DNA of 12,030 bases from Mariprofundaceae bacterium. GTDB taxonomy: Bacteria; Pseudomonadota; Zetaproteobacteria; Mariprofundales; Mariprofundaceae. Positions 2,694-8,122 of the stretch are shown piece after piece; position 1 is the stretch's first letter, and each line of letters starts with the position of its first letter. The stretch is from the NCBI GenBank assembly GCA_030950875.1, contig JAUZQS010000094.1, forward strand, positions 1-12,030, read 5' to 3'. Under the pieces are notes generated by a model, which searched no databases, was not told the origin of the DNA, and saw nothing but the letters and a program-made list of their open reading frames with translations. The translations under genes were made by a program, and so were the position numbers.

Positions 2694-3254
2694 ATGCAGA
2701 TCAATTCAACAAGCATTCGCGTAGGCCATGTCCTAGAAGTGGATAGTATCTTATGGCGCGTTATGAAAACACAGCATGTCACACCGGGTAAGGGTGTGGC
2801 TTGTATGCAAGTTGAAATGCGTAATATTGAAACAGGCAACAAAACCAACAAACGTTTCAACTCAACTGAACGCGTTGAACGTGCTGTATTATCACAAGTT
2901 AAAATGCAATACTTGTATTCAGATGGTGAAGATTATCACTTCATGAACACTGAAACCTATGACCAAATCACCTTGGGAAAAGATATGTTAGAGAATGCTT
3001 TGCCATATCTATTACCAGAGATGGAAGTTGTCGTAGAATTTCATGAGGAGCGGCCTCTTAATGTTCAAATGCCTAAAACAGTTATTCTTGAACTGGTCGA
3101 ATGTGATGCTTCTATCAAAGGGCAAACAGCAACCAGTTCATACAAACCTGGCAAGCTGGAAACAGGTGCTTCCATCATGGTTCCTCCATTTGTTGAGTCA
3201 GGGATTAAAATCAAAGTCAACACAGACAACGGCGAATATATCGAGCGCGCATGA
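2694..3254 (+). CDS. efp: Translation elongation factor P
   Basis: EF-P binds ribosomes stalled at consecutive prolines and stimulates peptide-bond formation. The protein (186 residues from the preferred start) has the three-barrel EF-P layout: an N-terminal KOW-like domain (about 1-62), a central OB domain (about 64-128) and a C-terminal OB domain ending GEYIERA. The tip loop TPGKG places K33 at the modified position. A lysine fits EpmA-type lysylation or no modification, rather than the EarP arginine rhamnosylation route. Two ATGs occur in a row. AGGAG (2683-2687) is only three bases from the ATG at 2691 but six from the one at 2694, so 2694 is preferred. It heads an operon: its TGA overlaps the ATG of the TolC-family gene (ATGA). 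No modification enzyme gene is in view. Confidence 0.96.
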   Translation: MQINSTSIRVGHVLEVDSILWRVMKTQHVTPGKGVACMQVEMRNIETGNKTNKRFNSTERVERAVLSQVKMQYLYSDGEDYHFMNTETYDQITLGKDMLENALPYLLPEMEVVVEFHEERPLNVQMPKTVILELVECDASIKGQTATSSYKPGKLETGASIMVPPFVESGIKIKVNTDNGEYIERA

Positions 3255-4723
3255 TGCGGCTGGCATGCCTTTTGGCACTCACTGCCACATTGCTATTCAC
3301 CGCCCCTGCATGGGGCGGTGAATCAAAGTTATCACTCAACAGTGTCTTACATATCGTATTAAATAATCATCCAGATTTGGCATTGGCGCGTATTCAGGAA
3401 CAAAGCTTACACATTGAGCGGCAGAATATTGAAGGCATACTGGATCCTAGGATTTCCTTAGCTGGCAGCCTATCCGATGAGACAACACCAACCACAAGCC
3501 CCTTTGCGCCATCAGGAAACAGCATTCGACTCCTCTCTGGTAATATTACAAAACTTCTGACTGATGGTGCCACATTAAAAGGAAGCTTTAATTATAGTCG
3601 TACAAAGGTCAGTTATCCAGGCAGTGTCCCTACCTTTTTTCAAGCAACTATTAATCCAACATATCAGCAACAAATTGATTTAATTTATCGTTACCCATTA
3701 TTGCGGGGTCATGGAAACCCTACCTATAACGAACAAATTACCAGCAATCAATTCAATGAACAAGCCGCACGTTGGCAAGTTGCCATCCAGCAAGAACAGT
3801 TAGCTGCCCAAGCTATTCGCCTTTATTACCAAATAGCATCCAATGTTATTGCCAAAAAACTTGCTAAAGAAGCAGTGCTTCGTGCAAATAAGTTGTTAAA
3901 TTATCAAAAAAAACGTCAACAATTCGGGCTTATTGATGACACAGATCGCCGCCAAACAGAGGCCTTGCTTGCCAGTCATAAAATGACCCTTGCCAATGCT
4001 AAGGCAACACTAAATAGTAGCATAACCGCCCTTAATCGCTTAATGCTACGTGATGCCACACAACCGATTCAACCTAATATTAACGTCACATCACAGACTT
4101 TTAAAATAGCTCCCATCCAAACATGGTTAGAGCAAGCCAAGCAACAGCGCCCCATCTTCCATATGCTGGATGCCCAATTGGCAGCCAATGATGCCACATT
4201 AATACTCAATCACGATCAACACGATACACAGGTAGATCTGATTGCCCAAGTTGGTAGCCGTTCGTTATCGGGTTCCGCAGGTTATACCTTTGGCCAAGGT
4301 TTCACCCTTAATGACCGTTTTATATCTATTGGCGTTGAATTAAACGACACCTTGGGTGGAAAAAGCACCCAAGCAGCGATTCTAAAAACTGAATTAGAAC
4401 GTGAACGTATTCACTTACTACGCAAGCAAGCCATCGAAAATATTGAGACTGCGTTAAGCAATGCCCTTACCTTTTATCATAATGGTAAAATGATAAAGGC
4501 TGCTTCCAAACTACATGAGCAAGCTGAACAAATAAAATTCACAACCGAACTAAAGCGTTACCGTGATGGTCGCTCTGATACCGCTACGCTTATCCAATTT
4601 GAGGGTGACTTGCGTAATGCTGAATTACAGGCTGCATTACAAGACATCCAAATTCAACTTTCAAAGCAACAGATTGAACTGGCTACGGGCAATCTTCTGA
4701 AGGATTTGGATATTACCCCATGA
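3251..4723 (+). CDS. TolC-family outer-membrane efflux channel
   Basis: A 490-residue outer-membrane factor that would form the trimeric exit duct for a tripartite exporter. An N-terminal signal peptide (about residues 1-22, ending APAWG before GESKLSL) has no lipobox cysteine, so it is TolC-like rather than an OprM-type lipoprotein. The family's two repeats are visible: helix-rich stretches with NEQ, QAARWQVAIQQEQLAAQAIRL and Gln/Ala-rich coiled-coil runs in the first half, and LEQAKQQRP, then ALSNALTFYHNG and RYRDGRSDTATLIQFEGDL in the second. The start overlaps the efp stop (ATGA) and a second in-frame ATG follows at 3254; either may be used by translational coupling. Its own stop overlaps the RND start the same way. 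The tight coupling implies it is the outlet of the RND pump downstream. The substrate is unknown. Confidence 0.9.
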   Translation: MMRLACLLALTATLLFTAPAWGGESKLSLNSVLHIVLNNHPDLALARIQEQSLHIERQNIEGILDPRISLAGSLSDETTPTTSPFAPSGNSIRLLSGNITKLLTDGATLKGSFNYSRTKVSYPGSVPTFFQATINPTYQQQIDLIYRYPLLRGHGNPTYNEQITSNQFNEQAARWQVAIQQEQLAAQAIRLYYQIASNVIAKKLAKEAVLRANKLLNYQKKRQQFGLIDDTDRRQTEALLASHKMTLANAKATLNSSITALNRLMLRDATQPIQPNINVTSQTFKIAPIQTWLEQAKQQRPIFHMLDAQLAANDATLILNHDQHDTQVDLIAQVGSRSLSGSAGYTFGQGFTLNDRFISIGVELNDTLGGKSTQAAILKTELERERIHLLRKQAIENIETALSNALTFYHNGKMIKAASKLHEQAEQIKFTTELKRYRDGRSDTATLIQFEGDLRNAELQAALQDIQIQLSKQQIELATGNLLKDLDITP

Positions 4724-7700
4724 CAGCACTGATTGCCTTTTTTGTGCGGCGTGGTTTGGTCGTCAACCTACTATCGTTAATGTTACTTTTTGGTGGTGTC
4801 TTTGCGGCCTTTCATATTCAACGTGAAGCCTTTCCTAGTGTTAATTTTGATGTCATTGTCATCTCTGCGGTATACCCAGGAACATCGCCACATGAGGTCG
4901 AGAACCTTCTGCTTACCCCTATTGAGCGTGAGTTAAAAGGCATTGATGGTATCAACACCATTTATGCTACCGCCTATGCAGGAAGCATGCAGGTAACCAT
5001 TAAAGTTGATCCAAACTATCACGATCGATCACGTCTGGTTTCCGACATTCAACAGGCCATTAACCGAGCCTCTTTACCCAGTGATTTACCCAGTGACCCA
5101 GTCATTTCTGAAATCAAATCCGAACAAGCTCCAGTTTTAAGCTTTACTGTTTTTGGTGATGTGTCACCACTTAAGTTAAAACACCTTAGCACCCAAATTA
5201 AAGATGACGTTTTAAACCTTAAAGGTGTATCACACGTATTTGTGCAGGGTGATTTAAAAGAGGAAATTCGCATCACCCTAGACCCTGTACGCATGCGTAA
5301 AAATCGCATTGCCATTAATGACGTTGTTCGTTTAATTCAAGGCTGGAACATCAATGCGCCTGGTGGTCGTCTTAAAAGTTCTAAAGGGCAACGTGTTATT
5401 CGTATCACAGGTGAATTCAGTTCGGCTGAAGATGTTGGCAACCTAGTACTGCGTTCCAATGACCAAGGTCAAAGCCTTTATTTAAAAGATATCGCTGATG
5501 TCAAAAACGCATTAGAGCGCCCGCATCGTATTGTTGCAGCACAAGGTGAACCCGCTGTAAATATGATTGTAATGAAGAAAGGCAATGAAGATATTATCAG
5601 TCTTGTCGACCGTGTTCGCAGCTATTTGGATACGGTGCCTGAGACATACCATATGCAAGTTCGCACCTACCATGATCTGTCCATTGTCACACGCTTGCGC
5701 TTGGGTGTATTAACCAGTAATGGTGCGATTGGCCTAGCTCTTGTGATGTTAACACTATTGCTTTTTCTGCGCCCTGCAGTGGCTTTAACAACGGCTTGGG
5801 GCTTGCCGATTATATTTTTCTCTGGTTTAGCTCTCTTATATTTTTCAGGTGTAACACTGAACCTTCTTACCATGTTCGGCTTTATTATGGTGTTAGGGCT
5901 AATGGTCGACGATGCCATTATTATTGGGGAAAATGCCACGTGGCATATGGAGCGAGGTCTTTCCCCAGAACAAGCCGCCATTAAAGGCACAGCTGAACTT
6001 GCTGGGCCTGTAACAGCCACAGTACTTACCACTATCGTAGCATTTTTGCCTCTCATGTACATGGATGGCATTATTGGCAAGTTTATCTATTCCATTCCCG
6101 TGGTTGTCATTGTTTTATTAGGTTTTTCACTCATTGAAGCACTTTTTATTCTCCCCAATCATATTAGAGACTTTGCTCGTGCTGATGTTCACCCTAGAAA
6201 ACGAGTGATTTTCAATTGGTTCAACAACATTTACGGGAAAGTTCTAGAAACTGCCGTAAAACTTCGCTATTTAACCATTCTGCTGACTCTTTTGGCGTTG
6301 GCAGCAACGGGCCTACTAGCCAGCCAAATGAAATTTCAATTGTTTCCATCCGGTGCTGAAAGTGAGTTTTATCTACGCGTCAATGCTCCCATTGGCACAA
6401 GCTTAGAAAGCACCTTTAAAAAACTTGTCAAACTAGACAAATTCGTGCGCTCCCACATTGACCCTACATTACTCGAAACCACAACGCTTGTGGCTGGAGA
6501 AAACAGTGCAGACCAACGCGAGGCCTTAAAGCAAGTAGGCGATCGCTTTGGTTTTGTGCGCGTTATTCTTACGCCCTTTACCAAACGGACAACATCGGCT
6601 TATGAGGTTATGGCTGATATCGAAAAAATCGTGCCACAAAAATTCCCGAAATTAGCCATAAGCTTTGCGATGCAATCATCCGGACCACCTGTTGGCCGCG
6701 CTTTGCAAGTTGAAATAAGCGGCTCAGATACCACAACAAAAAAACGTGTCGCCAAACGACTCGAAGCATTGCTTCATACTATCCCTGGCGCAACTGCTAT
6801 TGAAAGCGATTTACAACCAGGGCAGCGAGAACTGCACATTGTCCTAGATCGACCCAAGGCCGCATACGTTGGCATTGATTTGAAGACTGTCGCCTTTCAT
6901 ATCAAAGCAGCCTTTGATGGTATTCGTGTTTCCACTTTAAAACATGGTAAGGAAGAAATCGATATCACTATTCGCTATCCTGAAGCTGCACAGCATAGTA
7001 TAAAAACCCTTATGCAGCTTGAAATTCCCAATCAGCGCAATGGACTCATCCCACTTTTTCGTATTGCACATGTAGAAGAAACCGCTGGTAGTAGCAGTAT
7101 TCGACACAAAGACGGCAACCAAATTATTAATGTCTCGGCCGAAGTAGACTTGAAAACCATTACATCCAAAGAGTTAAATGCACAGGTTCAAGATCGTCAG
7201 AATGAATGGCTGGGTGATGATGCAGAACACATCCATTATCACTTGGGCGGCGAGCAAGAGCGTAGCAAAGAATCCGTGCAAGGATTAATTTATAGTTTTC
7301 TTTTCGCACTGATCGGTATTTTTATTATTCTGGCTATTCAGTTTAATCGTATCAGCTACCCATTCTTAGTCATGATGGCCATTCCTTTCGGTGCTATCGG
7401 TATTGTCATTGGTTTCTTTGTACACGGCCAACCCATTTCATTTATGGCCATGATGGGTTTTGTTGCACTTACAGGCGTCGTTGTTAATGCATCGTTGGTG
7501 CTAGCAGTGTTTATTCAGCGCGAACTCGAACAAGGCGTCGCTTGGCGTGAGGCTATTGTTGAGAGTAGCAAGCGCCGCTTAAGGGCAGTGCTTCTCACCA
7601 CAATCACCACGGTCGTCGGACTTTTACCCACCGCCTATGGTTGGGGTGGTCTGGATCCCTTTGTTGCCCCTATGGCATTAGCATTGTCTTGGGGTTTGCT

Positions 7701-7794
7701 CTTCTCCACATTTATCACCTTATTCTCTATTCCCGCAGCCTTGGGTATCGGCATGGACATCAAGCAACTCTTTTCGCGCCCATCCAAGGTATAA
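4720..7794 (+). CDS. RND-family efflux permease (AcrB/HAE-like)
   Basis: A 1024-residue inner-membrane, proton-driven exporter of the resistance-nodulation-division family. The layout is typical: TM1 near residues 10-30, a large periplasmic loop, TM2-6 near 330-480, TM7 near 515-540, a second loop, then TM8-12 near 855-1010. The N-terminal signature QREAFPSVNFD and the periplasmic AVYPGTSPHEVE are family hallmarks. TM4 carries the proton-relay pair D397-D398 in GLMVDDAII. In TM10 the position aligning with the AcrB relay lysine (K940) is N923 in GVVVNAS. This occurs in other RND subgroups but sets it apart from AcrB/MexB. ATGA overlap couples it to the TolC-family gene. No membrane-fusion (HlyD/AcrA-type) adaptor lies in the operon or window, which is unusual for an RND system. 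The substrate cannot be inferred. Confidence 0.94.
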   Translation: MTALIAFFVRRGLVVNLLSLMLLFGGVFAAFHIQREAFPSVNFDVIVISAVYPGTSPHEVENLLLTPIERELKGIDGINTIYATAYAGSMQVTIKVDPNYHDRSRLVSDIQQAINRASLPSDLPSDPVISEIKSEQAPVLSFTVFGDVSPLKLKHLSTQIKDDVLNLKGVSHVFVQGDLKEEIRITLDPVRMRKNRIAINDVVRLIQGWNINAPGGRLKSSKGQRVIRITGEFSSAEDVGNLVLRSNDQGQSLYLKDIADVKNALERPHRIVAAQGEPAVNMIVMKKGNEDIISLVDRVRSYLDTVPETYHMQVRTYHDLSIVTRLRLGVLTSNGAIGLALVMLTLLLFLRPAVALTTAWGLPIIFFSGLALLYFSGVTLNLLTMFGFIMVLGLMVDDAIIIGENATWHMERGLSPEQAAIKGTAELAGPVTATVLTTIVAFLPLMYMDGIIGKFIYSIPVVVIVLLGFSLIEALFILPNHIRDFARADVHPRKRVIFNWFNNIYGKVLETAVKLRYLTILLTLLALAATGLLASQMKFQLFPSGAESEFYLRVNAPIGTSLESTFKKLVKLDKFVRSHIDPTLLETTTLVAGENSADQREALKQVGDRFGFVRVILTPFTKRTTSAYEVMADIEKIVPQKFPKLAISFAMQSSGPPVGRALQVEISGSDTTTKKRVAKRLEALLHTIPGATAIESDLQPGQRELHIVLDRPKAAYVGIDLKTVAFHIKAAFDGIRVSTLKHGKEEIDITIRYPEAAQHSIKTLMQLEIPNQRNGLIPLFRIAHVEETAGSSSIRHKDGNQIINVSAEVDLKTITSKELNAQVQDRQNEWLGDDAEHIHYHLGGEQERSKESVQGLIYSFLFALIGIFIILAIQFNRISYPFLVMMAIPFGAIGIVIGFFVHGQPISFMAMMGFVALTGVVVNASLVLAVFIQRELEQGVAWREAIVESSKRRLRAVLLTTITTVVGLLPTAYGWGGLDPFVAPMALALSWGLLFSTFITLFSIPAALGIGMDIKQLFSRPSKV

Positions 7795-7823
7795 AAAGAA
7801 CAACCATCATAAATATACTTTAA

Positions 7824-7829
7824 TATAAA
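7824..7829 (+). promoter_or_regulatory. -10-like element of sRNA unit 1
   Basis: TATAAA (with overlapping TAATAT at 7821-7826) lies in an A/T-rich block conserved in both copies. No TTGACA-like -35 is found 16-18 bp upstream, so an activator or an alternative sigma factor may be needed. Predicted RNA start is about 7835-7837. Confidence 0.5.
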
Positions 7830-7835
7830 ATTCAC

Positions 7836-7947
7836 AGTGCCATCATATTGAAGCTGTAGAGTTTGGCTTGTCTGGTGTCGCCCTCCTCCCCCCTCCCTTA
7901 GACATCAGACGACAATTTAAAAGGCTCCGCATTGCGGGGCCTTTTTT
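7836..7947 (+). ncRNA. Candidate small RNA 1 with CCUCC-rich loop
   Basis: Predicted to be about 112 nt. After a 5' segment (7836-7869) comes a 10-bp hairpin, GTCTGGTGTC (7870-7879) with GACATCAGAC (7901-7910), including one G-U pair. The 21-nt loop 7880-7900 is pyrimidine-only apart from its first and last base and contains CCCTCCTCCC and CTCCCTTA. A short A/T-rich linker leads to an intrinsic terminator. There is no convincing reading frame. CCUCC-rich single-stranded loops are a known anti-Shine-Dalgarno device in bacterial trans-acting sRNAs, so base pairing to ribosome-binding sites is the likely mode of action (inference). It could be made from its own promoter or processed from the 3' end of the efflux operon mRNA, whose stop is at 7794. 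RNA ends are estimates. Confidence 0.72.
7921..7947 (+). terminator. Intrinsic terminator of sRNA 1 (and efflux operon)
   Basis: The stem AAGGCTCCGC (7921-7930) pairs with GCGGGGCCTT (7934-7943) through one G-U pair, with loop ATT and a six-T run ending at 7947. It is the first terminator after the RND gene, so it probably also ends efp-operon transcripts. Confidence 0.92.
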
Positions 7948-7993
7948 GTTTCTTCATTTACCCAACATAAAAAGTAACATAAATGTGTTTTAA

Positions 7994-7999
7994 TATAAA
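7994..7999 (+). promoter_or_regulatory. -10-like element of sRNA unit 2
   Basis: TATAAA lies in the same conserved block as in unit 1 (170 bp away). Upstream bases 7978-7990 are similar to 7808-7820 but again lack a -35. Its preservation right after the unit 1 terminator supports independent transcription of the second RNA. Predicted start is about 8005-8007. Confidence 0.5.
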
Positions 8000-8005
8000 A
8001 TTCAC

Positions 8006-8122
8006 AGTGCCATCATATTGAGGCTGTAGAGTTTGCCTTGTCTGGTGTCGCCCTCCTCCCCTCCCTTCCCCTTAGACATCAGACAACAACTTAAAAGGCT
8101 CCGCAATGCGGAGCCTTTTTTT
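8006..8122 (+). ncRNA. Candidate small RNA 2, sibling with longer C-rich loop
   Basis: Predicted to be about 117 nt. It has the same architecture as the first RNA: a near-identical 5' segment, the same 10-bp stem (8040-8049 with 8075-8084), a 25-nt loop (8050-8074) and a terminator. The loop has CCCTCCTCCCC, CTCCCTT and CCCCTTA, so it grew by extra C/T bases while keeping the CCUCC and CUCCCUU cores. Such sibling RNAs often act redundantly or additively on shared targets. Selection on stem and loop rather than on a protein is suggested because the length change falls only in the loop. RNA ends are estimates. Confidence 0.72.
8095..8122. terminator. Probably bidirectional intrinsic terminator (sRNA 2 / hflKC operon)
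   Basis: A perfect 10-bp stem, AAGGCTCCGC (8095-8104) with GCGGAGCCTT (8108-8117), has loop AAT and is followed by T at 8116-8122. A's at 8093-8096 supply a short U run on the minus strand, where it would end the hflK-hflC-DUF2065 transcript. Confidence 0.88.

Follow-up and report, generated by a model that had tools for sequence, protein, structure and literature searches.

A previously undescribed family of predicted CU-loop small RNAs with phased-repeat promoters in Zetaproteobacteria

Two similar units of DNA, each closing with a predicted intrinsic terminator, follow an RND permease gene in the window (i.e., the whole 12,030-nt stretch that was analyzed, one contig of a draft genome of 1.7 Mb and 68.5% completeness). 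An earlier note on this DNA had read them as tandem sibling small RNA (sRNA) genes with anti-Shine-Dalgarno (SD) loops, from a family that it did not recognize. The locus raises the question of whether the units belong to a conserved RNA family and, if so, how its members are controlled and what their pyrimidine-rich loops do.

Two tandem units behind an RND permease gene

The units occupy positions 7809-7948 (copy A) and 7979-8122 (copy B), and each consists of a promoter, a hairpin with a C/U loop and a terminator. They are offset by 170 bp, and 58 of 60 bases are identical between 7820-7879 and 7990-8049; the reading as tandem siblings, predicted as it is, stands. The predicted response-regulator site of copy A, at 7809..7856 (+), consists of direct repeats, four in number and phased at 11 bp (ATAAAT.. 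/ TTTAAT.. / ATTCAC.. / CATCAT..), and a 10-nt spacer. It was located with a profile of 96 upstream regions and a match to a promoter model, R2 (G000:C332:7809-7865, 35.9 bits; R2 was trained on a nearly identical sequence). The -10 box, TAGAGT, lies at 7857..7862 (+), at the fixed distance of the family profile (TAnnnT). The repeats and spacer of copy B span 7979..8026 (+; R2 match at G000:C332:7979-8035, 35.1 bits, itself a training sequence), and its -10 box, again TAGAGT by the family profile, is at 8027..8032 (+).

Folding gave a 12-bp hairpin in both copies, at 7868..7912 (+) with a 21-nt loop at 7880-7900 (GCCCUCCUCCCCCCUCCCUUA) in copy A, where covariation also supports it, and at 8038..8086 (+) with a 25-nt loop at 8050-8074 (GCCCUCCUCCCCUCCCUUCCCCUUA) in copy B. 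Both were matched by a covariance model of the family, R1, of which each is itself a training sequence (copy A, 7867-7948, 92.4 bits; copy B, 8037-8122, 94.5 bits). The "same 10-bp stem" noted earlier holds for the part conserved across the family and falls short of the 12 bp in the window. Each loop has one purine per end and between them nothing but C and U, over 19 or 23 nt, and CCUCCUCCC is part of both runs. The terminator hairpins with their U runs lie at 7919..7947 (+; fold and helix 2 covariation) and 8093..8122 (+; fold and covariation); as noted earlier, they differ in the loop (AUU/AAU) and in a U-G versus a U-A pair. Since the -10 boxes are at 7857-7862 and 8027-8032, RNA starts are expected near 7869 and 8039, which would give RNAs of ~80-85 nt. 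The earlier proposal of 112- to 117-nt transcripts from 7836 and 8006 has to be revised, the promoter profile placing the starts ~33 nt later.

The units sit between the RND permease gene (4720..7794, +; Pfam ACR_tran), directly upstream of copy A, and DUF2065/HflC/HflK genes on the minus strand. A TolC-like gene (3251-4723) precedes the permease gene, and no membrane-fusion protein was found among the ten window frames scanned with Pfam. Elsewhere in the family, a tex-like frame lies downstream of some further copies, with Tex/S1 domains by Pfam at L217 and, by eye, also 3' of copies L203, L204, L208, L209, L212, and L218.

Distribution, structure and promoter of the family

Of 41 genomes compared by BLAST, 16 contained related DNA, and 25 units from these loci, from which three false units had been removed, were aligned (A1) and used to build R1. 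At E <= 1e-3, R1 matched 73 of 78 Zetaproteobacteria genomes (a count that, like that of R2 below, includes genomes that supplied training sequences) and all 39 class genomes that were >=90% complete and <=5% contaminated. Because R1 also matched 77 of the 320 non-class genomes (147 of 398 overall; the phylum sample includes the 78), this threshold is too loose and not class-specific. At E <= 1e-6, R1 matched 65 of 78 class genomes, including the three of a second family (f3), and none of the 320 outside (best 39.6 bits, E 5.3e-6), a control that is somewhat less sensitive since 11 candidates were scored per genome versus 57 in the class search; it missed the class genome G026 (5.8e-7 in the class search). 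Some of the weaker R1 matches are antisense terminators. An exact gapped pattern, searched over a collection of 84,980 species, was found on 24 contigs, of which 20 are from Zetaproteobacteria/Mariprofundaceae/Mariprofundus and two are recorded merely as proteobacteria; the two alphaproteobacterial matches (L065, L066) were rejected as chance, their loops not being C/U-only. Among the Mariprofundus carriers of the family are M. micogutta ET2 and strain EBB-1.

Two copies lie in the window and three stand in tandem at L012; the closed genome G018 has four and G063 has five, with one or two of these resting on weaker matches. Rfam 15 gave no family at its gathering score, in keeping with the earlier note, which did not recognize the family. 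The best matches, Phe_leader (33.5 bits vs. 55) and GcvB (20.6 vs. 42), were the only ones at E <= 1 and were rejected as identities, their sub-threshold scores resting largely on terminators. The search gave no sequence homology to LhrC, a Listeria RNA family discussed below, which has an Rfam entry. No sRNA described from Zetaproteobacteria turned up among the open-licence papers searched. By these comparisons of sequence and predicted structure, the window units belong to a previously undescribed family found throughout Zetaproteobacteria.

The earlier note had proposed that structure is kept between the copies, and the model built from the copies and their relatives agrees, with both stem and terminator covarying. 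In A1 (25 sequences), 99.4% of cells were paired and two-sided changes occurred at 8 of 21 pairs; the observed value was attained in 0 of 500 shuffles for four of five measures and in 11 of 500 for the fifth, the number of further pair types. In A4 (103 members), two-sided changes occurred at 19 of 21 pairs with 98.3% paired, values that lean toward the model to which this alignment was fitted and that include seven non-canonical members. Stem sequences vary between genera, and members folded better with their own arms than with arms swapped between members (mean -18.8 vs. -13.3 kcal/mol). Across the class genomes, stem and terminator showed covariation and not the decay that, by the earlier note, would have spoken against its reading.

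Promoter profile and loop counts were restricted to 96 canonical members, eight of the 104 listed being left out: seven without the repeat promoter by eye (five of them TAGAT-type siblings) and L145, a 33-bit match. The loops differ in length family-wide, as they had been noted to do in the window, with the conjecture that this could tune target choice. Their C/U run is 10-29 nt long, with a median of 20, and 71% of it is C. All 96 contain CCUCC, while CCCUCCC occurs in 91/96, CCCCUCCC in 73/96 and exact CCUCCUCCC in 33/96. Genus g9 (Mariprofundus) also carries a second, divergent CU-rich hairpin RNA with CTTCCC motifs and, by eye, no repeat promoter (L118:296-379, L053:993-1066, L143:3080-3161, L059:1308-1389, L051:1695-1776). 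Its 5' starts are TAGATCTGGC, TAGATCCGGC, or TAGATTCGGC, and it adjoins a canonical copy in four of the five loci.

The repeat promoter, like the class-wide multicopy distribution, goes beyond what had been noted before. Upstream regions of the 96 canonical members aligned without gaps after small shifts, and their information content is periodic, the autocorrelation reaching 0.90 at a lag of 11 bp. Four 11-bp direct repeats (~ATnAA, TTAAT, TTCAY, nTCAY) are followed by 10 nt, a TAnnnT -10 box and, a few nucleotides 3' of the box, the hairpin; no prominent -35 box appeared in the profile. Activators of the OmpR/PhoB family work with this geometry, for example at phoA of E. coli, where 11-bp repeats likewise end 10 nt from the -10 box. 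R2 is a sequence-only model of the 57-nt promoter; A3 left out L086 and near-identical rows and then nine of 76 rows, so that 67 were used. At E <= 1e-3, R2 matched 69 of 78 class genomes. In a phylum sample of 299 the same 69 were its sole matches, with none among the 221 genomes from outside the class. G011 (99% complete) and G022 had neither a promoter match nor a strong sRNA match and are possible natural losses.

In a first set of promoter sites, taken from outside the initial collection, a CU-loop hairpin lay directly 3' in 21 of 23 (13/13 at E <= 1e-3 and 8/10 weaker), the two without one being the weaker matches L215 and L219. The first 68 nt folded clearly better than shuffled sequence in 18 of these 21 (z -2.6 to -7.6), while L206, L207, and L218 (z -0.7 to -1.0) did not, their stems being present. 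A second set gave the hairpin at 20 of 20 sites, among which L302 has the same letters as member L138, L299 and L307 are alike, and the loop of L292 lacks CCUCC. Combined, and with L302 excluded, 40 of 42 distinct sites, and 32/32 at E <= 1e-3, precede a CU hairpin; R1 also matched weakly at no fewer than four of these 42, and the count leaves out other R2 matches, mostly beside weak R1 matches. Because of this linkage the promoter appears, among the sites examined, to be private to the CU-loop RNAs. At L219:2423-2674, a weak promoter match (16.7 bits) precedes an 83-aa frame with no Pfam match, possibly a protein-coding gene under the same regulator.

Loop function and comparison with known systems

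CCUCC is the anti-SD core of 16S rRNA, and by analogy with the LhrC loop in Listeria the CU loop should cover purine-rich ribosome-binding sites. The target search with loop sequences that the earlier note had called for did not bear out this function. The scan covered two 400-kb stretches of closed Mariprofundus genomes with crude gene calls of our own (379 and 366 genes), and loop complementarity at starts did not stand out against shuffled leaders (G018, 379 genes, p=0.10). Several top matches were nuo genes; the signal for the nuo/atp region was weak (16 pairs, p=0.049), and correcting for the strength of the ribosomal anti-SD abolished it (p=0.36). Among 253 orthologue pairs, complementarity was less conserved for the loop than for the ribosomal anti-SD (rho 0.53 < 0.65). 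Neither Hfq (PF17209) nor ProQ (PF04352) was detected in 16 class genomes, 15 of them >=90% complete, while the same searches found them in 5 and 1 (E. coli), respectively, of 14 well-known genomes; co-immunoprecipitation with these proteins, proposed earlier, is therefore not promising.

LhrC of Listeria is the closest functional analogue, and by architecture the family described here is not a member of it. LhrC1-5 of Listeria monocytogenes are multicopy RNAs whose expression depends on the two-component regulator LisR; they carry redundant CU-rich motifs with UCCC, a CU loop pairs with an AG-rich SD region, and Hfq was dispensable for the tested target (PMC4132741, PMC5880928). The present family shares the multicopy state (two copies in the window, up to five in G063), and the geometry of its repeats suggests a like dependence on a two-component regulator. 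LhrC, however, has three separate CU motifs, spread across two loops plus a linker, in five Listeria-conserved copies of 111-114 nt (PMC4132741, PMC5880928), whereas a single CU loop on one hairpin is seen here, in RNAs predicted at ~80 nt, behind four 11-bp repeats and in Zetaproteobacteria. The likeness has the appearance of an LhrC-type design reached independently by an unrelated lineage.

Among the cuckoo/CcsR RNAs of Alphaproteobacteria, SmelA075/SmelA099 carry the anti-SD motif CCUCCUCCC in the loops of their hairpins, and related RNAs lie in clusters (CcsR1-4; PMC3927594, PMC10253847). The same motif is in both window loops and, exact, in 33 of the 96 canonical members. Three motif hairpins are found in SmelA075 and four in SmelA099, and CcsR RNAs are processed from a single ccaF1(DUF1127)-CcsR precursor under an RpoHI/RpoHII promoter (PMC3927594, PMC10253847). 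Here one CU hairpin is predicted per RNA, and each canonical copy has its own terminator and its own promoter, by profile four 11-bp repeats and TAnnnT. No DUF1127 neighbor was seen in the window, where RND, DUF2065, and HflC were identified and, among frames of <80 aa, DUF2065 was the one scanned. NmsRA/NmsRB of Neisseria, the analogy drawn in the earlier note, do resemble the family as tandem siblings with UC-rich anti-SD regions, which repress translation there; they are described as a pair, RelA-linked, with a sigma70-like promoter (TTGACA -35 in NmsRA) and three predicted stem-loops, the anti-SD being placed in a linker and in the loop of SL2 (PMC5362039), unlike the two conserved hairpins and single CU loop found here. 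The analogy thus holds in part, with LhrC nearer. The CU-loop family differs in at least one architectural feature from each of LhrC, cuckoo/CcsR, and NmsR. OmrA/OmrB of enterobacteria are sibling sRNAs under an OmpR-family regulator; they are Hfq-dependent and differ in structure and pairing region. What is new is, as read from the upstream sequences, the four-repeat phased promoter.

Alternative explanations and the candidate regulator

The explanation that we hold to be probable is a class-wide, multicopy, Hfq-independent family of trans-acting anti-SD sRNAs, predicted at ~80 nt. Each gene would have its own promoter, at which an OmpR/PhoB-type activator would bind the four 11-bp repeats and replace the -35 box, a TIGR01387-type regulator (below) being the candidate. 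The RNA would consist of a 10-12 bp hairpin with a C/U-only loop run of 10-29 nt, then the terminator; CCUCC, repeated in the loop in several registers, would pair with purine-rich SD regions and block translation without Hfq or ProQ, and tandem and dispersed copies would raise the dose. We infer that the genes are transcribed and activated in this manner, and that their RNAs repress by such pairing.

Rho favors C-rich RNA, and the CU-rich loop could conceivably be a decoy for Rho or for an RNA-binding protein, with no mRNA pairing. Such a role would suit the negative target scan, the repetition of the motifs and a C/U purity that is kept while loop length varies, as expected of a protein that reads composition. 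We consider it unlikely, since the near-universal CCUCC and CCCUCCC show more order than C/U content alone requires, and since LhrC, a multicopy CU-motif RNA, pairs with mRNA, in one case at an SD region (PMC4132741, PMC5880928). The elements might instead be 3'-UTR or attenuator structures of an RND operon, for an RND relative just upstream on the same strand is the commonest neighbor (53 of 104 members and 43 of 66 genomes, with contig and locus ends hiding some), 62-184 nt from the nearest copy in 41 of 42 genomes measured and 547 nt in one. This is very improbable for structures that have a conserved promoter at each of 96 canonical copies and retain promoter and terminator in every tandem copy; moreover, about half of the members had no RND gene directly 5' of them in the search, and tex-like frames follow some of the further copies. 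That the units are chance repeats or functionless degenerate duplicates we regard as close to negligible, contradicted as it is by class-wide conservation and covariation and by the promoter-hairpin linkage at sites found from the promoter alone.

Which protein reads the repeats is a separate matter. A census of 16 class genomes gave 2-8 OmpR-type regulators per genome at E <= 1e-6. One kind, of 227-228 aa, is present in 16/16, ~78% or more identical and with an invariant HVWDMNFDPESNVIDVY stretch, and the two of these scanned both exceeded the cut-off of TIGR01387 (heavy-metal response regulator). A ~480-aa frame follows it in six of seven loci, the seventh being cut by a contig end, and the two such frames tested are histidine kinases. 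Six of the 16 genomes, drafts of 91-98% completeness of which G014 has the promoter at E 0.0016 only, have just two OmpR-type regulators at E <= 1e-6. The second was read as PhoB-like in three of the six, and one second regulator had PhoB as its best NCBIfam match, below the PhoB cut-off. PhoB, or a non-OmpR regulator, could read the repeats with the conserved regulator uninvolved, which would be compatible with the RNA part of our preferred explanation: PhoB-like regulators occur in Zetaproteobacteria, and the promoter geometry equals that of E. coli Pho-box promoters. We think this possible, if doubtful. Among 23 pstS loci, in mixed orientation so that many upstream stretches are not promoters and the weight falls on L167 and L168, CTGTCAT-type boxes were seen by eye at those two and the sRNA promoter profile matched at none. 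These observations make PhoB unlikely and leave non-OmpR regulators untouched. By elimination, given the six genomes with two OmpR-type regulators, the conserved TIGR01387-type regulator, with its neighboring kinase, becomes the candidate activator of the promoter. Against this assignment, CusR/CopR-type boxes are palindromic and do not resemble the direct repeats of the family; among genomes covered by both searches, R2 also had no match at the gene of the conserved regulator itself.

A speculative proposal is that, in Zetaproteobacteria, a class-conserved heavy-metal-type two-component system may act via this promoter almost only through one multicopy anti-SD sRNA family. If true, its regulon would be one at the RNA level, perhaps tying the metal or envelope stress that goes with iron oxidation to repression of translation on a global scale. 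The private promoter also turns the matter into a testable question, i.e., which regulator serves a single sRNA family. The CU-loop family would offer a naturally occurring example of regulation by sRNA in bacteria where neither Hfq nor ProQ is detectable, and it would provide a first handle on post-transcriptional control in the iron-oxidizing Zetaproteobacteria.
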